From positions 1 to 28,131 of IMG/VR virus record IMGVR_UViG_3300020190_003158: DNA of 28,131 bases; one strand, 5' to 3'. The translations under genes and the position numbers were made by a program. The DNA comes from a virus. The notes under the pieces are model-generated. The model was not told the origin of the DNA, did no database searches, and saw only the letters and a list, made by a program, of their open reading frames with translations. Within the stretch, counting starts at the first letter, position 1; every line of letters begins with the position of its first letter. Positions 4,607 through 26,401 of this stretch are shown one piece after another.

Positions 4607-5008
4607 TTACGTTATATTTTCTTCATTATCGAATTTTGCGTTTATAAAAACCCTATCCATTGATCTATCACCGTTAGGGTTATAGTTAGGTCTTACTTCA
4701 CTAAAATTATCAAAGGTTGGTTTGTAAGTAAATATTTTATCCACTCTAAAGAACCTCCAACCCGGTAAATAATTACCTTCGTTTTTTTCTGACCATGAAG
4801 CGCCTTCTGTTTCCCAGGCCCTCAAAACTTGATTACCCTTTTTACTGACACCAAAACAAACGGGTTCAATTGTTCTATATCCTTTACCTCCATTATCATC
4901 ACCGTCATAATAAATAATAACGACTTTCTTATTCTTAATGGAGTCCTGAATATCAGAGATAGCGGCAGCTTCTGAAATGATATTTTTTAAATTATTTAAA
5001 AGTTTCAT
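4607..5008 (-). CDS. Stand-alone WYL-like domain protein
   Basis: This is a 133-residue protein. Residues from about 26 to 98 resemble the SH3-like beta barrel of WYL domains: VVIIYYDGDD, GYRTIEPVCFGVSKKGN, LRAWETEG and WRFFRVDKI follow the family pattern of beta strand, R-x-I-x-P, 'lrAw' and 'fRvdrI'. WYL domains usually sense ligands or nucleic acid and are fused to a DNA-binding helix-turn-helix, but no such helix is present here. The N-terminus MKLLNNLKNIISEAAAIS is a short amphipathic segment with an I-x-E triplet (residues 11-13), similar in style to T4 capsid-targeting peptides. It overlaps its upstream neighbour by 4 bp. The family assignment is moderate; a role as regulator or packaged protein is unproven. 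Confidence 0.6.
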   Translation of the reverse strand: MKLLNNLKNIISEAAAISDIQDSIKNKKVVIIYYDGDDNGGKGYRTIEPVCFGVSKKGNQVLRAWETEGASWSEKNEGNYLPGWRFFRVDKIFTYKPTFDNFSEVRPNYNPNGDRSMDRVFINAKFDNEENIT

Positions 5009-16558: not shown

Positions 16559-17680
16559 TTAGATTACATTATAAGGACTTGTAAATGCTCTGAATTTTAA
16601 TAATTTATTTAAATTTTCTGCCTGCATTGCTTTTGCTTCCATTAGTTTTTCAGGTCTCAATCTTTCAAGTCTTAATTTAAGTTCTTCTTGTAATTGGGTT
16701 TTTTCATCCTTAGCTTCTGTAGACAACGATTGATATTCCAAAGTCAATTCAGAATCGGGAGTTTTTAAATTACCACTAAATTTACCTCTTACTCTTGCAA
16801 GGGTTTCTTTACAATATGCAGTAAACCATCTACGTACCCATGTTTGTGCAGGATAATTTAATTTATCCCATCTAAGTCTCTCAACAGCAACATCCGAAGG
16901 GAGCCTGATAACATCAGGATTATTTGCTAAACAATCCTCTCTATCACAAGTATCATAGTACCAATACCAAACTCTATATTCATTTCTTTTTATATTACCA
17001 AAATCAAATTTACCTCCAGGTACATTATATAAATGTAATGCTTTTTTACCTTCAGGAAGTGCGGTAACTCTATATGTTAAATCACCTGTAATTACTCTTC
17101 TTTTTAATTGGATGTCTGCCATTCTCAAAAGTATGTCAAATGCTGGCGTAATTGCGTAATTACCTGTAGTACCCATTTGTGAAAAACCGGCACCACCACC
17201 TAATCCGATACCACCAAAACCACCAAAACCACCCATAAATGGATCGAAGTATGCTGCATCTAACTCGGATCTTGCAAACCAAAGTAGTTCATTCATTTCT
17301 CGACATTTTGGAATTTCGTAAATCTGTTGGTTTGGTACCAAGTCGATGTAATCTTTTTTCAAAACCCAATCACCACCGGCTTGTAAACCAACAATTTTTG
17401 AATAAGCATATGTGTATTGGGTTTCCCAATTCATATCTCTTGTCGTCAACGCCCTTGCTATTGATTGTTCTTCAACATTTAATCCAGCAACAGAAGCCCA
17501 CTGAGATTCAATCAACCAATCTTGGACTGCTTGTTCGTAGTCTTCGATTGAAAGTTCTAATAATGAGTCCATCATCTCATCTTCAAGTTCCACTCCGCGT
17601 AGAGGTGCACCCAAAAGATTTCTAATTCTTTTGTACATCTTACTTCTTTCAGGTTCTGTGATAATTACAGTAGTTGACAT
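16559..17680 (-). CDS. Probable neck/head-tail connector protein (gp13-like candidate)
   Basis: The protein has 373 residues. The N-terminus (MYKRIRNLLGAPLRGVELED followed by a helical segment ending in YEQAVQDWLIE) looks like a head-tail adaptor. The middle has beta-strands with many aromatics (NEYRVWYWYYDT) and a Gly/Phe-rich loop at about 149-165. The C-terminus is a long charged helix (about 322-360). The T4 gp13 neck protein has 309 residues. Support for the assignment is mostly by context: the gene is close to probable neck, tail-completion, sheath and tube genes in the order T4 uses. It has a TATTTAT box 14 nt upstream, as structural genes here do. A portal-associated or other connector protein remains possible. 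Confidence 0.5.
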   Translation of the reverse strand: MSTTVIITEPERSKMYKRIRNLLGAPLRGVELEDEMMDSLLELSIEDYEQAVQDWLIESQWASVAGLNVEEQSIARALTTRDMNWETQYTYAYSKIVGLQAGGDWVLKKDYIDLVPNQQIYEIPKCREMNELLWFARSELDAAYFDPFMGGFGGFGGIGLGGGAGFSQMGTTGNYAITPAFDILLRMADIQLKRRVITGDLTYRVTALPEGKKALHLYNVPGGKFDFGNIKRNEYRVWYWYYDTCDREDCLANNPDVIRLPSDVAVERLRWDKLNYPAQTWVRRWFTAYCKETLARVRGKFSGNLKTPDSELTLEYQSLSTEAKDEKTQLQEELKLRLERLRPEKLMEAKAMQAENLNKLLKFRAFTSPYNVI

Positions 17681-17694
17681 ATGATATTTTTTAT

Positions 17695-17701
17695 ATAAAT
17701 A
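17695..17701 (-). promoter_or_regulatory. Candidate late promoter box (TATTTAT), minus strand
   Basis: It reads GATATTTATATAAAA on the minus strand, with 14 nt between the box and the ATG at 17680. It sits in the 26-bp gap after the superoxide dismutase stop, so the neck-like gene could be transcribed independently of SOD. Confidence 0.5.
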
Positions 17702-17706
17702 TCTTA

Positions 17707-18438
17707 TTAATCTACTTTATTTAATTTTACTTGGGTTGAGTATAAATCAGAAACAAAATCCCAATTAACTACTTTCCAAAAATTGTGAATATATCTATCC
17801 CTTTCATTTTTATATTTCAAGTAGTAAGCGTGTTCCCATAAATCTAAACCTAATAATGGATATGATTTATTACTCCCCTTTAACATTAAAGGATTATCTT
17901 GATTTGGTGTTGTAATAATTTTGAGTCTATTTGATTTAGTAACTACTAACCAAACCCAACCAGATCCAAATCTTGATTTTGATTCCTCTTCAAATTTTTC
18001 TTTAAATTTATCAAAAGAACCAAAAGTAGATTCAATTTTATATAACAATGGATTTTCTAATTTAGTTTTTTTAGGGGTTAACATTTTCCAAAAAAGAGCA
18101 TGATTAAATGCTCCACCACCATTGTTTCTAACTTTAGTGTTGAATTTTGATATTCCCGTTACTATTTGTTCTAAATCTAAGTCTTTACCTTTTATTTTTT
18201 CTAATTCCAAATTTAACTTCTCAACATAACCTTTATAGTGTTTGTTATAGTGAGTTTTCATTGTTTCCCCATCAATAAAAATATCTAAATCATCATATTC
18301 GTATGGTAATTTGTCTATTGAAATTTTTTTGATTTCAGAAATTATAGATTCACTCAATAGTGAATTAGGTTTTAACTTTGACTCTAATAAATTTATTTTT
18401 TGATTGTAACTTTTTAATATCATAAATATAAATATCAC
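17707..18438 (-). CDS. Superoxide dismutase, Mn-type signature, with N-terminal extension
   Basis: It converts superoxide to oxygen and hydrogen peroxide. The Fe/Mn family fold begins at LPYEYDDLDIFIDGETM (residue 44 on). All four metal ligands are present: H63, H113 (GGGAFNHALFW), D199 and H203 (LDLWEHAYYL). The active-site tyrosine is Y71. G109 at ligand minus four and Q180 in the NQDNPLM motif are features of Mn-type rather than Fe-type enzymes, though cambialistic enzymes also show them. The catalytic domain is complete, so the enzyme should be active. An extension of about 43 residues precedes the fold and contains LLE, LSE and ISE triplets. The GTG start at 18438 overlaps the helicase stop by 4 bp (GTGA); an ATG at 18423 would shorten it by five residues. 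It lies between an SNF2 helicase and a neck-like gene. Confidence 0.93.
   Translation of the reverse strand: MIFIFMILKSYNQKINLLESKLKPNSLLSESIISEIKKISIDKLPYEYDDLDIFIDGETMKTHYNKHYKGYVEKLNLELEKIKGKDLDLEQIVTGISKFNTKVRNNGGGAFNHALFWKMLTPKKTKLENPLLYKIESTFGSFDKFKEKFEEESKSRFGSGWVWLVVTKSNRLKIITTPNQDNPLMLKGSNKSYPLLGLDLWEHAYYLKYKNERDRYIHNFWKVVNWDFVSDLYSTQVKLNKVD
18428..18434 (-). promoter_or_regulatory. TATTTAT box at start of superoxide dismutase
   Basis: GATATTTATATTTATG on the minus strand holds two overlapping TATTTAT boxes (18428-18434 and 18422-18428) just before the internal ATG at 18423. The first lies only 4 nt from that ATG, too close for a usual promoter-to-start distance, so this may be chance or a leaderless arrangement. 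Confidence 0.25.
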
Positions 18439-20198
18439 CTCTTATTAGAAATCATATTTAACATTTCTTCAATTGCGGATGCGTCATCAATAATGTCATC
18501 ACCCATTACTGTAGATATTATTTTTTTCTTTCTATTTAAAATATCATAAATCACACCTTCGATAGTGTTTTCAAAAAGCGGATAATAAACTGATGTTGAA
18601 TTTTTTTGTCCTATTCTATGTGATCTGTCTTCTGCTTGTGCGTGTTCTGCAGGTACAAATGATAAATCATTCATAATAACCGCTTCCGCCGACGTTAAAG
18701 TAATCCCAACCCCCGCGGCTTTTAAGTTACCAACAAAAACCTTTATTTTATCATTATCTTGAAAATCATCTACTGCTTTTTGTCGATGAGGTTTAGAACA
18801 TGAACCATCTAAATAAACTGCTTGTTTTCCAAAATGTTCATAAATGGTTCTTAATGTATCTGTAAAATTTGTAAAAATAATAACTTTTTTCCCTTGTTCT
18901 ATAATGTTTTCCGCTAACTCAATTGTGTTTTTTACTTTTTCTTCGGCAATTACTTTTCTTACTTTCATTAATTTACCAAATTGAATTGTTAAAGATGACG
19001 ACTCTTCTGAATTATTATCATACCAATTAAAATATTCACCCATTAATTCTTCATAATCTTTTGATTTTAATCTCAAATATACGGGTGTGATAATTTTATC
19101 AGGTAAATCTAACACGTCTTCTTTTAGTCTTCGTAAAATATGAGACTGAGTTCTTTCTCTTAATTCATCTAAATTAGACGCACCTGTTACGTTCCATACT
19201 TTTCTTTTCCCAACACTAAATTGAAACCCATTACAATATCTTCTTGCATAAGACATCCAATTTGCTGCCACAGGACTTTCAACTAAACTTAAAAGATTAT
19301 AATAATTCATTGGTCTTGATGTCATTGGGGTTCCTGTTAATAACCAAACTCTATTAACTTTACTACATAAATCATTTACAATTTTTGTTCTTTGTGCTTG
19401 TGGGTTTGATATCATATGAGCCTCGTCCATAATAACCAAATCAAAATTTGAATTTAGGATTGTGGACTCTTCTTTCTTTTTTGGATCGTGAAAGTTTTTT
19501 AATATATCGTAATTAATTATAACAAAATCAGACTCACTTGAAAATTTTTTACCTTCTGCAATATATACGGTTCTATCTGAATAATTTTCAATTTCACGTT
19601 GCCAATTTATTTTTAAGGACGCAGGACATACAATTAATATTTTTTTATCACCTGTTTCAAGTGCCGATATTATTGTTGAGGTAGTTTTACCAAGCCCCAT
19701 ATCATCAGCCAAAATAAACTTTTTGTTTCTAACAAGTTTTTCAATAGCTTCTTTTTGGTGTTCCATTGGTGCTCTGTGATTGTATTTAGAATATTCAATA
19801 ACTACATTTTTAACTTCATTGTCTTTTATAAGTGCAGTTTTTGGTACCCAAAAATCGTGTAGAGTTTCTCCACTAAATATTTTACCCCAAATGTGATATG
19901 ATTTATCTTTTTCAACTAATAGTTTTTCAACATAAATTTCTGATGGTTCTTTTGTGTACATTTTATCTTCCATCATCTTTTTTCCAAAATATGAATCAAG
20001 TTTAACCCATTTTTTTGCAACCTTCGGTATTCGTCCGTGAAAGTTAATAATATATTCTGCTTGAGATCTTGTGGGGGTAAAAGATTTACTATTTTGTTTT
20101 TTGTGTTTTAAAGCCAAGATATAATTATTCGAACCATCATAGTCATCTAACATTTGAAGGGCTCTTGTCTCGGGAGTTTTTGAAATTAATTCTTCCAT
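18435..20198 (-). CDS. SNF2-family DNA helicase/translocase (SMARCAL1-like)
   Basis: The protein has 587 residues from the ATG at 20198 (MEELISKTPETRA). The frame stays open for 57 more codons, but these overlap the divergent promoter region and a plus-strand gene, so I reject them. Motifs by position from this start: Walker A DDMGLGKTT (165-173), motif II DEAH (258-261), motif III TGTP (288-291), and motif VI QAEDRSHRIGQ (521-531), the last typical of SNF2 ATPases. An N-terminal domain of about 140 residues precedes the motor and may give substrate specificity. SMARCAL1-type motors rewind or remodel forked DNA, so a role in replication-fork repair or recombination is likely. The stop overlaps the SOD start, linking their translation. 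Confidence 0.9.
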   Translation of the reverse strand: MEELISKTPETRALQMLDDYDGSNNYILALKHKKQNSKSFTPTRSQAEYIINFHGRIPKVAKKWVKLDSYFGKKMMEDKMYTKEPSEIYVEKLLVEKDKSYHIWGKIFSGETLHDFWVPKTALIKDNEVKNVVIEYSKYNHRAPMEHQKEAIEKLVRNKKFILADDMGLGKTTSTIISALETGDKKILIVCPASLKINWQREIENYSDRTVYIAEGKKFSSESDFVIINYDILKNFHDPKKKEESTILNSNFDLVIMDEAHMISNPQAQRTKIVNDLCSKVNRVWLLTGTPMTSRPMNYYNLLSLVESPVAANWMSYARRYCNGFQFSVGKRKVWNVTGASNLDELRERTQSHILRRLKEDVLDLPDKIITPVYLRLKSKDYEELMGEYFNWYDNNSEESSSLTIQFGKLMKVRKVIAEEKVKNTIELAENIIEQGKKVIIFTNFTDTLRTIYEHFGKQAVYLDGSCSKPHRQKAVDDFQDNDKIKVFVGNLKAAGVGITLTSAEAVIMNDLSFVPAEHAQAEDRSHRIGQKNSTSVYYPLFENTIEGVIYDILNRKKKIISTVMGDDIIDDASAIEEMLNMISNKR

Positions 20199-20204
20199 TA
20201 TATT

Positions 20205-20211
20205 ATAAATA
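20205..20211 (-). promoter_or_regulatory. TATTTAT box before SNF2 helicase
   Basis: On the minus strand it reads TTATTTATAATATA, with 6 nt between box and ATG at 20198. The spacing is short compared with most boxes here. Confidence 0.3.
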
Positions 20212-20244
20212 AAAATAGTAAATATTATAAAAAAATCAATCAAA

Positions 20245-20252
20245 GTATTTAT
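20245..20252 (+). promoter_or_regulatory. GTATTTAT box before probable neck gene
   Basis: GTATTTAT ends 4 nt before the ATG at 20257. If it is the promoter, the transcript would start at or after the ATG, so either the start is leaderless or the true promoter is elsewhere. Confidence 0.35.
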
Positions 20253-20256
20253 TAAT

Positions 20257-20772
20257 ATGTCACAGAATAAAGTTCCAATTACACGCTTAAATAAGTTTTT
20301 TTCAGAAGAAGACTTTGATTTAGATATTTCTATGGGAGATGAATGGCTTGGTGGGGATATGAATTTCACTTTAGTTTTATATAGAGTGGATAGACAAAGA
20401 ACAAATAATGATGATGTTTATGGGGAGGCGTTAAAAGATGCGATACAATTTTTACCTCCTGTCGAATTTAAAGGGTATGTTCAAGTCGAGTCTCCTGCAA
20501 ACACCGATTACGGATCATCAAAATTATCCCAAACTGAACCTGGTAATTTAAAGGTTGGCGTATATCAGAAGGAATTAGATAATTTAGGTATTGAAATTTC
20601 TTATGGGGATTACATCGGTTACTATGAAACTGAAACTAGAGTGAGATACTATTCTGTTGTTAATGACGGACGTGTTACTTCAGATAACAAACACACTTAT
20701 GGTGGTTATAAACCATTCTATCGTTCAATAATAGGGGCACCTGTTAATGATAATGAATTTAAAGGAATTTAA
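20257..20772 (+). CDS. Probable neck/tail-connector protein (gp14-like candidate)
   Basis: The protein has 171 residues. Motifs DDVYGEALKDAIQFLPP (about 50-66), EISYGDYIGYYE (about 113-124) and the C-terminal YKPFYRSIIGAPVNDNEFK are reminiscent of T4-group gp14-type neck proteins, where a 'YGE' and a late 'GDxIxY' recur. T4 gp14 has 256 residues, so this would be a short version. It is followed 2 bp later by the probable tail-completion gene, the same order as gp14 then gp15 in T4. Assignment rests largely on that order, and a different head-tail joining protein cannot be excluded. Confidence 0.45.
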   Translation: MSQNKVPITRLNKFFSEEDFDLDISMGDEWLGGDMNFTLVLYRVDRQRTNNDDVYGEALKDAIQFLPPVEFKGYVQVESPANTDYGSSKLSQTEPGNLKVGVYQKELDNLGIEISYGDYIGYYETETRVRYYSVVNDGRVTSDNKHTYGGYKPFYRSIIGAPVNDNEFKGI

Positions 20773-22108: not shown

Positions 22109-25100
22109 ATGGCATCATCAAACAAAGTTTTCGTTTCACCTGGAGTTTATACTTCAGAAAGAGATTTAACTTTTGTTGCACAAAGTGTAGGTGTAACAAC
22201 TTTAGGTTTAGCAGGTGAAACCCTTCAGGGTCCAGCCTTTGAACCGATTTTTATAACTAATTTTGACGAGTTCCAAGTATATTTTGGGGGAACTAGTCCT
22301 GAAAAATTTGTTAACACTCAGATTCCTAAATATGAATTGGCATATATAGCAAAAGCATATTTACAACAATCAAATCAACTTTTTGTAACAAGAGTTCTTG
22401 GATTGTCAGGTTATGACGCTGGACCATCTTGGTCTATAACTACAATAGGTAATGTTGATCCGGCAACTATCGCAGCAACAGGAGTATCATCAACGGTATT
22501 AACATTTACAGGAACTACAGGAACAAGTTCTAATGTTACATACAACATGTCAGTACCTTCTATTATAAACGTTAATAATAATTTTTATAATACATATACT
22601 GAGTTTAATGGAGGTACATCAACAATCGATCAAGATTTAAGAACTTACATTTCAAATCAAATTAATTTATTCGCATTAGGATCGGCATCAACAGGAACAA
22701 CAGCGTTGTTTTGGGGTACTGTAAGTGCAGGGACATTTAACTTAGTAACGGGTACATCTTTAAACGGTACAGGAGTAATAAGTGCTTATACAGAAAATTT
22801 TGGAGTTAATAATGTTAATCTTTCGTTAGCGAATTTATCGGCAACAACTAATGATGCTTGGTACTACGCATTATTTAATTATTCACAAATTAACGACGTG
22901 AGTTCTTATTATGGACAAGGTTTTGGTGCGGCACTACAATCATTAAGTGGTTCAGGTGGTAACTTCTCAGGTTCTTGTGTTTTCTATAATACTAACTATT
23001 CAGGTACACCTTATTTAGATTATGACGATTTAGTTGTTGCTACTTTAAGGTCAAGAGGTATCTCTAATTATAGTGCAACACAGGCAGGACCTAATTATGA
23101 AGTTACAGGAACTACCGATGTACAAATGTTATGTACTGGTTCATATTCCGCAGTTACTAAAAATCCATATGCACCATTCCTTATTTCAGGGGTTACATAT
23201 GACGGAGACAACTTTGAATTCCAAACGTCAATGTTATCAACAGATAAAAACTTTATATCTAAAGTATTTGGTAGAAGTAATTTTGGTAAGGATAGAACTG
23301 AGGTTCCTCTTTTTGTTGAAGAGACTTATACAAGTTTATTAACAAGTGGTTATAGAGCAGGTAAAATTAGAGGTTTAGATTGTGATATTATTGAATTACC
23401 AGGTGCTAGGTCATTAAACACCCAATCAATAGGGTTTTATTTAGAACAATATCAAACACCAGAAACACCATTTTTAGTTTCAGAACTTAGAGGTAATAAA
23501 GTTTATAAACTTTTTAAGTTTGTTTTAATTTCTGATGGTAACGCGGCTAACAGACTTGTAAAAATGTCAATTGGTGGTATATCATTTAATAATAGTACTT
23601 TTGATGTTTTTATTAGAGATTTTTATGATACTGATCAAAACCCAAGAGTTATCGAAAGTTTCACTAACTGTTCTTTAGATCCAAGTCAAAACAACTACGT
23701 GGCTAATAAAATTGGTACGTCTAATGGTGAATATCAAGTTAAGTCTAAGTATATTATGTTAGAAATGTCCGATGAAGCACCTACGGATGCACTACCTTGT
23801 GGTTTTGAGGGTTATGTATTTAGAAGATATTCAAATGCAACATCACCTTTCATCATTTATAAAACAAAATATAACCAACCTGGTGACGTACTTTTTAACC
23901 CACCTTTTGGTTCTTCTAATGGTGGAGATAATCCTGTGATTTCAAGTGGTGAAAACCCAAGAAAGGCTTATTTAGGTATTTCTAATATCACTGGTATTGA
24001 TTATGATTTCTTTGAATATAAAGGAAAACAATTACCTGCTAATTTAGGTACAGATACTACGGGACCATCTTGGGGTTATTTAACAAAAGGTTTCCACATG
24101 GATAGTGGGGCAACTGTAGTTACAATTGCTAATGGTTATGTAACATCTGGACAGTCAGCATTTGAAGTGGGTGTCGGATCATTTAATTCTGAACCTACTG
24201 ACAGCTCAAGTCCATATTATAAACTTAATACTCGTAAATTTACAGTATTAGCATATGGTGGTTTTGACGGTTGGGATATCTATAGAGAATATCGTACAAA
24301 TTCGGATACATTTGCATTAGGACAACCAGGATTTAAATATGGTGCGGAAGCTAGTATAACATACCCTACCGCAACAGGTTGGGGATCGTTTAAGGCTATT
24401 TCAGGACCTAACCAAGAAAATTGGGCAAATACTGACTTTTACGCATACAAATGGGGACAAAATACTTTTGCAAATCCTGAAGCAACAAATATTAATGTAT
24501 TCGCAACACCAGGTGTTGATTACGTAAATAATTCAAATTTAGTTGAGGACGCTATCGATATGATTGAAACTGATAGAGCAGATTCTATTTACATCTGTAC
24601 TACCCCTGACTTCGATTTATTTTTACCAACATATAATGATATAGAAGAAGGTTTGATTTTCCCTCAACAAGCAGTAGATAACTTAGAAGAGACGGGTATT
24701 GATTCTAACTACACCGCAACATACTACCCTTGGATATTAACAAGAGATTCGGTTAATAACACTCAAATCTATATCCCACCAACATCTGAAGTTGTTAAAA
24801 ACTTGGCATTAACTGATAACATAGCATTCCCTTGGTTCGCATCTGCAGGTTACACAAGAGGTTTAGTAAATGCTATTAGAGCAAGACGTAAGTTAACTCA
24901 AGATGATAGAGACACCTTATATAAAGGTAGAATTAACCCAATAGCAACTTTCTCTGATGTAGGTACGGTTATTTGGGGTAATAAAACTTTACAAATTAGA
25001 GAGTCTGCACTTGATAGAATTAATGTTAGAAGATTATTGTTACAAGCACGTAAATTGATTTCAGCTGTGGCAATTAGATTATTGTTCGAACAAAATGATA

Positions 25101-25324
25101 ATAAAGTAAGACAAGACTTCTTGGATTCAGTTAACCCAATTCTTGACGGTATTAGAAGAGATAGAGGTTTGATTGACTTTAGAGTTACTGTTTCTAACAC
25201 ACCTGAAGATTTAGATTCAAATACATTGACAGGTAAAATCTTCTTAAAACCTACAAGAGCGTTAGAATATATAGATATCGAATTTGTTATCACACCAACA
25301 GGAGCATCTTTTGACGATGTATAA
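22109..25324 (+). CDS. Tail sheath protein (gp18-like), enlarged
   Basis: This is the contractile sheath subunit that surrounds the tail tube and shortens on infection. The N-terminus SPGVYTSERDLTFVAQSVG followed by GLAGETLQGPA and FDEFQVYFGG is diagnostic. The conserved C-terminal domain, about the last 200 residues, includes AFPWFASAGYTRGLV, ARRKLTQDDRDTLYKGRINP, RRLLLQARKLISAVA and DFRVTVSNTPEDLD. Length is 1071 residues against 659 in T4 gp18. The extra sequence is largely in the middle (from about 110 to 390, Ser/Thr/Gly/Asn-rich and beta-like), where surface-exposed protrusion domains sit in sheaths, plus further insertions. A hairpin follows the stop. It has a candidate late box upstream and should be one of the most abundant late products. 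Confidence 0.97.
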   Translation: MASSNKVFVSPGVYTSERDLTFVAQSVGVTTLGLAGETLQGPAFEPIFITNFDEFQVYFGGTSPEKFVNTQIPKYELAYIAKAYLQQSNQLFVTRVLGLSGYDAGPSWSITTIGNVDPATIAATGVSSTVLTFTGTTGTSSNVTYNMSVPSIINVNNNFYNTYTEFNGGTSTIDQDLRTYISNQINLFALGSASTGTTALFWGTVSAGTFNLVTGTSLNGTGVISAYTENFGVNNVNLSLANLSATTNDAWYYALFNYSQINDVSSYYGQGFGAALQSLSGSGGNFSGSCVFYNTNYSGTPYLDYDDLVVATLRSRGISNYSATQAGPNYEVTGTTDVQMLCTGSYSAVTKNPYAPFLISGVTYDGDNFEFQTSMLSTDKNFISKVFGRSNFGKDRTEVPLFVEETYTSLLTSGYRAGKIRGLDCDIIELPGARSLNTQSIGFYLEQYQTPETPFLVSELRGNKVYKLFKFVLISDGNAANRLVKMSIGGISFNNSTFDVFIRDFYDTDQNPRVIESFTNCSLDPSQNNYVANKIGTSNGEYQVKSKYIMLEMSDEAPTDALPCGFEGYVFRRYSNATSPFIIYKTKYNQPGDVLFNPPFGSSNGGDNPVISSGENPRKAYLGISNITGIDYDFFEYKGKQLPANLGTDTTGPSWGYLTKGFHMDSGATVVTIANGYVTSGQSAFEVGVGSFNSEPTDSSSPYYKLNTRKFTVLAYGGFDGWDIYREYRTNSDTFALGQPGFKYGAEASITYPTATGWGSFKAISGPNQENWANTDFYAYKWGQNTFANPEATNINVFATPGVDYVNNSNLVEDAIDMIETDRADSIYICTTPDFDLFLPTYNDIEEGLIFPQQAVDNLEETGIDSNYTATYYPWILTRDSVNNTQIYIPPTSEVVKNLALTDNIAFPWFASAGYTRGLVNAIRARRKLTQDDRDTLYKGRINPIATFSDVGTVIWGNKTLQIRESALDRINVRRLLLQARKLISAVAIRLLFEQNDNKVRQDFLDSVNPILDGIRRDRGLIDFRVTVSNTPEDLDSNTLTGKIFLKPTRALEYIDIEFVITPTGASFDDV

Positions 25325-25388: not shown

Positions 25389-25526
25389 ATGAAAATAGAA
25401 AAAAAAATTATTAAAGAATCTATTGGTGACATTCAAAAGAGTCCTAAAACTTTTTCAGAAAAAAAACAAAACATTGTTATAACTGAAAAACAACTTGAGA
25501 AATTATTAGAGAAACTTAAAAAGTAA
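25389..25526 (+). CDS. 45-residue charged protein coupled to HAD gene
   Basis: It begins MKIEKKIIKESIGDIQKSPK and ends in a helical Leu/Lys/Glu-rich tail (TEKQLEKLLEKLKK). It is Lys-rich with no cysteine. The stop shares its last base with the ATG of the next gene (TAATG), which is the strongest sign that it is translated. A candidate late box lies 14 nt upstream. It could be a small scaffold or regulatory peptide; I recognise no family. Confidence 0.6.
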   Translation: MKIEKKIIKESIGDIQKSPKTFSEKKQNIVITEKQLEKLLEKLKK

Positions 25527-26401
25527 TGGACATTAGAAAACACGTATTAAATTATGTCAGACGTAGAAATATTAATGAGGGGATAACTTCAGAGGGTACT
25601 CCTGATTCTAAATATTATGCATTTGACTGGGACGATAATATTGTTTTTATGCCAACAACCATTATTTTAATGACTGAAAATGATGAGGAAGTCCCTATGT
25701 CAACCGAAGATTTTGCTGAACATAGACACCAAATAGGAAGTGAACCTTTTCCTTTTAAAGGAACCACAGTTGTTGGTTACGCTCCCGACCCATTTAGAAA
25801 TTTTGGAGTTATGGGGGACAAAAGATTTATTATAGATGCGATGTCTGCAAGTCCTGGACCTTCTTGGAATGATTTTGTAGAATGTATAAATGGGGGTTCA
25901 GTATTTGCAATTATTACAGCAAGGGGACATAATCCAGAAACATTAAAAGAGGCTACACTTAATTATATTTTATCAAACCATAACGGTATAAACAGTAGTG
26001 AAGTTGTTAAATCTTTAAAGTTATATAGAAATTGGACGGACAACCCAATTGACGAATCGGTTGATTTAAAATTTAACGATAAAGATATAATAATGGAGTA
26101 TTTAGATTTATGTCGTTTTGAACCTGTTACCTTCGGTGAAGGTAGTGCTGCCAACCCTGAAGAAGGAAAAATTGTTGCAATGAGAAAATTTATTAGTTAT
26201 TGTAAAGAAATGGCTAATGAAATTGGAAAAAAAAGTTACTTCAAAAATGATATTAGTAATGACGAAATAATCCCTTTTATTGGTTTTTCAGATGACGACC
26301 CTAAAAATATTGAGAAAATGAAAGATTTTATAGAAAAAGAATATGAAGAAAAACCTATAAGAATGTATTTAACTAAAGGAGGAGAAAAAAAAGAAGTTTA
26401 A
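25526..26401 (+). CDS. HAD-superfamily hydrolase-like protein
   Basis: The protein has 291 residues. HAD motif I is FDWDDN with D34 and D36, motif II is AIITARG with T131, and motif IV is GFSDDDPKN with the acidic triplet 256-258 and N261, so a Mg-dependent phosphohydrolase or phosphotransferase core is intact. The nearest known phage relatives would be polynucleotide 3'-phosphatases such as the C-terminal part of T4 Pnkp, but the kinase half is absent. Between motifs I and II lies a large insert (about 45-125) acting as a cap. The N-terminus (MDIRKHVLNYVRRRNINEG) is basic and separate from the fold. The position between sheath and tube genes is not T4-like and may mean a virion or assembly role. 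The substrate is unknown. Confidence 0.75.
   Translation: MDIRKHVLNYVRRRNINEGITSEGTPDSKYYAFDWDDNIVFMPTTIILMTENDEEVPMSTEDFAEHRHQIGSEPFPFKGTTVVGYAPDPFRNFGVMGDKRFIIDAMSASPGPSWNDFVECINGGSVFAIITARGHNPETLKEATLNYILSNHNGINSSEVVKSLKLYRNWTDNPIDESVDLKFNDKDIIMEYLDLCRFEPVTFGEGSAANPEEGKIVAMRKFISYCKEMANEIGKKSYFKNDISNDEIIPFIGFSDDDPKNIEKMKDFIEKEYEEKPIRMYLTKGGEKKEV

Follow-up and report, generated by a model that had tools for sequence, protein, structure and literature searches.

A predicted cleavable pro-region makes the superoxide dismutase of an uncultured phage clade a candidate head cargo

The window analysed here is a 28-kb virus record carrying T4-type tail genes (IMG/VR record IMGVR_UViG_3300020190_003158, the whole stretch of 28,131 nucleotides), and it encodes a superoxide dismutase (SOD) with an N-terminal region that ends in a motif typical of prohead-protease sites. 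From sequence and by analogy to phage T4, we consider it reasonably likely that this SOD is a pro-protein that would be recruited into the prohead, cleaved there and delivered with the genome; ejection of the enzyme is rated less likely than its cleavage. The first-pass annotation of the window had found the enzyme, and its overall reading is partly borne out; protection from oxidative damage is still the likely purpose of the phage SOD. The main feature, the pro-region with its prohead-protease-type site, had been missed.

The window gene product is a complete Mn-type SOD of the Fe/Mn family. The open reading frame first reported at 17707-18438 is real, with both Pfam domains above cut-off (Sod_Fe_N, 1.6e-22; Sod_Fe_C, 6.3e-41) and best PDB matches that are SODs, mostly of the Mn type (E 6e-59). 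Each of the ligands H63, H113, D199 and H203 is found at the number first assigned to it, as are the Mn-type residues G109 and Q180, and the gateway tyrosine Y71 is present as well. Aligning 71 phage with 80 bacterial SODs shows ligands and Gly/Gln pair conserved throughout, with one phage row gapped at two of these positions. The fold, the four ligands, the Gly/Gln pair and the gateway Tyr are those of bacterial Mn-type SodA (PF00081/PF02777). Comparison of the window SOD with its four nearest relatives gave a dN/dS of ~0.04-0.09, and therefore strong purifying selection; the enzyme is very likely catalytically active. The longest reading begins at GTG 18438, overlapping the SNF2 stop, and the true start is probably ATG 18423. 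This start is preferred because the extension, if counted from the first ATG, hardly varies in length among relatives (38 residues up to LPY in most of those without a fused domain), because residues 5′ of ATG 18423 vary among relatives, and because a TATTTATA element precedes the ATG. Since the ATG start leaves an 11-nt gap to the SNF2 helicase gene, the strict translational coupling to that gene proposed in the first-pass annotation is doubtful. The gene and its parts are as follows.

17707..18438, minus strand: Fe/Mn-type superoxide dismutase gene, longest reading, GTG start, 243 aa
17707..18423, minus strand: preferred SOD coding sequence from ATG, 238 aa (constant extension length; non-conserved upstream residues)
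18334..18423, minus strand: predicted SOD pro-region, 30 residues, MILKSYNQKINLLESKLKPNSLLSESIISE, short helix plus disordered stretch (AlphaFold); absent from most bacterial SODs
18334..18342, minus strand: predicted prohead-protease site I-S-E followed by I, cut after residue 30 of the ATG form ([IL]xE in 103/104 distinct relatives)
18349..18357, minus strand: second possible site L-S-E followed by S, just upstream, not conserved
17710..18333, minus strand: predicted mature SOD, 208 aa, beginning IKKISIDKLPY (pre-LPY length as in bacterial SODs; folded core by AlphaFold)
18250..18252, minus strand: metal ligand His63, invariant in 71 phage relatives
18100..18102, minus strand: metal ligand His113, in 70/71 phage relatives, the remaining one being a gap
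17842..17844, minus strand: metal ligand Asp199, invariant in 71 phage relatives
17830..17832, minus strand: metal ligand His203, invariant in 71 phage relatives
18427..18434, minus strand: TATTTATA element immediately 5′ of the SOD ATG, candidate late promoter

What sets the phage enzyme apart from bacterial SodA is the added 30-residue pro-region with its [I/L]xE, a deep separate clade, and the fusions carried by relatives. Bacterial SODs mostly begin a few residues before LPY, whereas the phage SODs are ~30 residues longer at the N-terminus. The motif [I/L]-x-E stands at a fixed place before LPY in 103 of 104 distinct phage SOD sequences, and the exception reads M-T-E. A cut after the E is predicted to yield a protein starting IKKISIEKLPY or MKKIGIEKLPY, of approximately bacterial SOD length. 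The AlphaFold model of the window SOD has a helix at residues 2-16, then a stretch of pLDDT<50 at residues 18-32 that holds the site, and then the folded SOD core. Among 11 divergent SODs without the fixed site, 10 keep I-Q-E, I-D-E, I-H-E, I-N-E, I-K-E or, in one case, V-T-E a few residues upstream, and the readable upstream part of the exception (L367) is short. The N-terminal site moves yet persists, and therefore behaves as a short protease site would. Its P1′ residue is Ile or Met, in contrast to Ala in the capsid protein, and the pro-region sequence is unlike the RLTE/IITE tags that are common in these genomes. Because conservation of the SOD continues beyond the E into the predicted mature N-terminus, the invariant E is by itself no proof of a protease site. 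A signal peptide was rejected on inspection by eye, the pro-region being charged, partly helical and without a hydrophobic core.

Relatives of the window SOD show the same type of motif at the borders of fused domains. The distinct sequences fall into three architectures: plain SOD (20), SOD with an N-terminal HExxH domain (26) and SOD with a C-terminal domain (58); the window SOD is plain, and the plain set includes close relatives of the window. The C-terminal domain (~265 residues; L221 and others, architecture A3) has E152, D179, D185, Q198 and K200 invariant in 33 sequences, a conserved E...D...QxK, and an AlphaFold model of pLDDT 92. No Pfam family scored above cut-off for it and a PDB sequence search gave nothing useful; the best Foldseek matches are I-Ssp6803I and Hjc resolvases, at an E of only 4.5e-3. 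With both motif and fold pointing that way and the fold matches weak, the domain appears to be PD-(D/E)XK nuclease-like. The linker joining it to the SOD is variable, yet glutamates are conserved at two points (54/54 and 51/54), each within an [I/L/M]-x-E that is mostly followed by S, G or A. The HExxH domain (~115 residues; L005, L006, L008, L009 and others, architecture A4), with HEWxH and NE invariant in 17 sequences, is a candidate zinc metalloprotease but matched no Pfam family above cut-off and nothing in the PDB; in these fusions the tag-like segment is internal. One relative, G006, encodes a stand-alone HExxH protein at 66915-67304 and, at 118104-119060 between the prohead protease and capsid genes, a separate nuclease-like protein that starts MKITISEGQY. 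The paired [I/L/M]-x-E of the linkers and this MKITISEGQY start indicate that domain borders are marked by prohead-protease-type sites.

The SOD gene sits between two genes that accompany it across the clade.

16559..17680, minus strand: neck / head-tail adaptor protein (phrog_211), downstream of the SOD in 134/134 testable loci
18435..20369, minus strand: SNF2-family helicase, upstream of the SOD in 142/142 testable loci; an ATG near 20198 is its likely start

These counts come from 160 SOD-bearing loci, in which the order SNF2-SOD-neck was scored wherever it was testable. The placement of the SOD within phage structural genes, as first described, is thus a gene block fixed across relatives, and the 26 bp reported between SOD and neck gene is correct (17681-17706). 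The neck gene itself keeps the qualifier 'probable' that it was given, the assignment resting on similarity of its C-terminal part to phrog_211 (head-tail adaptor Ad2, 5.5e-11). At least 587 IMG/VR contigs encode SOD relatives, and a second query gave as many. When the neck protein served as search query, so as not to select on the SOD, the SOD was present at the same place in 79 of the 80 loci recovered, whose neck proteins were as little as 64% identical; in locus L352, which is without it, helicase and neck are separated by a short gap only. Since contigs from many metagenomes share the gene order, the window SOD is not an assembly artefact, and synteny and the SOD tree together rule out a recent host gene or a chimeric contig. 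Further along the window, the tail sheath (22109-25324, 1071 aa) matches sheath families only in approximately its last 300 residues, its N-terminal two thirds having no such match.

Relatives of the window encode the kind of head genes that such processing would use. A Gp23-family capsid protein is present in 6 of 8 larger relative records. A Peptidase_S77 (gp21 family) prohead protease is encoded by 5 of 12 records of relatives, and these records are possibly incomplete. Neither gene was found in the window or in its closest relative, G001, both being linear and possibly incomplete records. The bS21 gene occurs in 5 of 8 relatives, and in the two genomes inspected it neighbours the prohead protease gene, from which it differs in strand (G005, 156088-156282; G006, 116317-116505). 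The same bS21 arrangement, in a terminase-portal-protease-capsid block, is described for bS21-encoding phages of freshwater Bacteroidetes with genomes of up to ~330 kb, in a paper whose main text does not mention superoxide (PMC9723584). This placement of bS21 would tie the clade to the published phages, with membership of the window resting on its relatives. A search of 50,697 named phage records gave no match to the neck protein, and the clade therefore appears uncultured as far as this collection goes. The same records yielded no convincing SOD: among 15 weak matches (H1-H15), the sole annotated one that was opened, H10 (MW462191), proved to be a string of bacterial genes, and named phage SODs were accordingly set aside as relatives. 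Contamination of phage records is possible, as the bacterial genes in H10 illustrate. The first-pass statement that such SODs are uncommon in tailed phages thus agrees with the named records, but the gene is near-universal in this uncultured clade.

The tree and database search that the first-pass annotation had proposed place the phage SODs in one clade apart from bacterial SODs. The 72 phage SODs of a quick maximum-likelihood tree group together with full support, on a long stem and apart from 80 bacterial SODs picked as nearest, nearly all from Bacteroidota. The closest bacterial SODs, again nearly all Bacteroidota, are 43-52% identical to the window SOD. A single fully supported clade on a long stem indicates one old acquisition, and within the bounds of a quick tree with a nearest-only bacterial set, this is the origin to which the sequences point.

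Motifs of the same kind occur on many other proteins of these phages. The capsid precursor of relatives reads LINE followed by A at the place expected for gp23 maturation. In the 967 proteins that four relatives encode, residues 4-30 show a 1.9-fold enrichment of [I/L]-x-E over the body of the same proteins, the highest of the combinations tested; [I/L]-x-D and [I/L]-x-K reach 1.06-fold and 1.5-fold. Two tag types recur in G001, G002, G005 and G006: MKKIIRLTESDL...VKRIINE (MKKIIRLTE...) on 30 proteins, which form 29 families beyond residue 30, and MKIIITESQ... on 43 proteins, forming 34 families beyond residue 30. Matching segments follow 8 of 5,021 internal methionines, compared with 73 tagged proteins. 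The tagged proteins are possibly a very large head-packaged set. Two further proteins in the window carry an N-terminal [I/L]xE tag.

4607..5008, minus strand: protein with conserved N-terminal tag MKLLNNLKNIISE followed by AAA (I[STL]E kept in 4/4 relatives)
25526..26401, plus strand: protein with N-terminal tag MDIRKHVLNYVRRRNINE followed by G (ortholog in G006 without tag)

The N-terminal ITE of the neck protein was rejected as a tag, Pro being next and the motif not kept in orthologs (ISQ, IPE). The TATTTATA element, found again at window positions 17694-17701, precedes 5 window genes where 0.1 would be expected, with similar results in four relatives, and lies at <=25 nt from start codons ~30-50x over expectation. 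It stands before terminase, sheath and neck genes and before 78 of 99 phage SODs, compared with 0 of 80 bacterial SODs, and is associated with N-terminal tags (odds ratio 3.1, p 3e-4). The element may be a late promoter.

The mechanism that we consider most likely would join these features. The SOD would be transcribed with the structural genes, as the shared TATTTATA element and the position of the gene suggest, and the ~30-residue N-terminal region would recruit it into the prohead core, much like T4 capsid targeting sequences (CTS). Inside the head, a gp21-like prohead protease would then cut after [I/L]-x-E and free a SOD as long as the bacterial enzyme; in relatives, the same protease would split the SOD from its fused nuclease-like or HExxH domain. 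The mature SOD would be ejected with the DNA to remove superoxide at the start of infection, and might also protect the packaged DNA. A near-universal SOD at a fixed place among head and tail genes is what one would expect if the enzyme belongs to the particle. For a broader version, in which processed multi-enzyme head cargo (SOD alone or fused to the nuclease-like or HExxH domain) would be cut at each junction and injected as part of a large tagged set, we see about an even chance.

Phage T4 offers the closest parallel to such processing. Its Alt protein is an ADP-ribosyltransferase. Alt is cut at ITE-6 and LTE-619 (PMC5694885). Cleavage by the T4 protease gp21 follows L/I-x-E, and foreign enzymes given a 10-residue T4 tag enter the head and, from there, the cell (PMC9026906). 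Like T4 IPI-III and Alt, the phage SOD has an N-terminal region ending in L/I-x-E, a clade with a gp21-family protease and a gp23-family capsid protein, and an enzyme as the candidate cargo. Unlike them, the cargo would be a SOD, extra sites lie between fused enzymes, and packaging is here read from genes. The pro-region is also longer, at ~30 residues versus the 10-20 of the short T4 tags. Propeptides of the giant phage SPN3US exceed 100 residues (PMC5694885), and the mismatch in length therefore weakens the view that the SOD is a T4 CTS protein, not that it works like one. The nearest precedent for a packaged SOD is that of chlorovirus PBCV-1, likewise a large DNA virus, whose Cu/Zn SOD A245R is late-expressed, present in the virion and proposed to lower superoxide at infection (PMC7019647). 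It differs in belonging to an unrelated Cu/Zn family and to a eukaryotic virus, with no T4-type tag known.

Several other explanations share part of this evidence. A complete and conserved enzyme is also what a classical auxiliary metabolic gene would provide, with the SOD acting only in the infected cytoplasm and an uncut N-terminus serving dimer or oligomer contact or stability; SODs in freshwater phages have been noted before as metabolic genes for defence against reactive oxygen species (PMC6802176), and SODs are among the auxiliary metabolic genes of putative Microcystis viruses (PMC12542629). We find this account unlikely, as it leaves unexplained the paired [I/L]xE in otherwise variable SOD-nuclease linkers, the N-terminal site that shifts but is kept, and the disorder around that site. 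Auxiliary metabolic genes are usually sporadic, and a near-universal SOD in a fixed structural block is left unexplained as well.

Packaging and cleavage could also serve the particle itself, with the SOD acting inside the virion or prohead against photochemical oxidants in sunlit water and unneeded after ejection. The evidence for packaging is then the same, and the freshwater habitat of the clade fits (PMC9723584), but fusions to nuclease-like and HExxH domains with the same type of site suggest co-delivery of enzymes that act in the host. Peroxide, too, would have to be cleared by the host cell, since searches of eight relative records turned up neither a catalase nor a ferritin-family gene; an AhpC-like protein scored above cut-off in one relative only. 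We regard a purely in-particle role as distinctly improbable. Least probable is a structural or accessory component of the neck or tail, added near the head-tail adaptor and not injected: the SOD always adjoins the neck gene, but the block adjoins the helicase just as invariably, [I/L]xE is a motif of head maturation, and in T4 the neck joins the particle once the DNA is packaged, a stage at which the prohead protease has done its work (PMC9026906). A SOD that is packaged, cleaved and delivered with the genome is the explanation we favor.

To our knowledge, no phage is known to carry a SOD in its particle. A protein of an uncultured Caudovirales phage (UniProt A0A6J5L953, 501 aa) is a fold match to the C-terminal domain model (E 1e-27, 38% identity) and probably has the same arrangement of SOD and C-terminal domain, as judged by name, length and modelled fold. 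In the match table it is named only 'superoxide dismutase', and the nuclease-like domain and cleavage sites are not named there. The literature searched, which includes few subscription papers, gave no account of the pro-region, the fusions or the idea of packaging. What appears to be new is the processing anatomy of the phage SOD, by which a known enzyme would be put into a known delivery route. If this is true, superoxide would be a barrier in the first minutes of infecting aerobic freshwater Bacteroidetes, great enough that almost all members of a widespread clade would pre-load a SOD, and the phage would deliver a ready-made antioxidant enzyme along with its DNA. T4-type tags and prohead-protease sites would turn host-type enzymes, even several per chain, into deliverable cargo, and the injected proteins of uncultured huge phages would become predictable from sequence.
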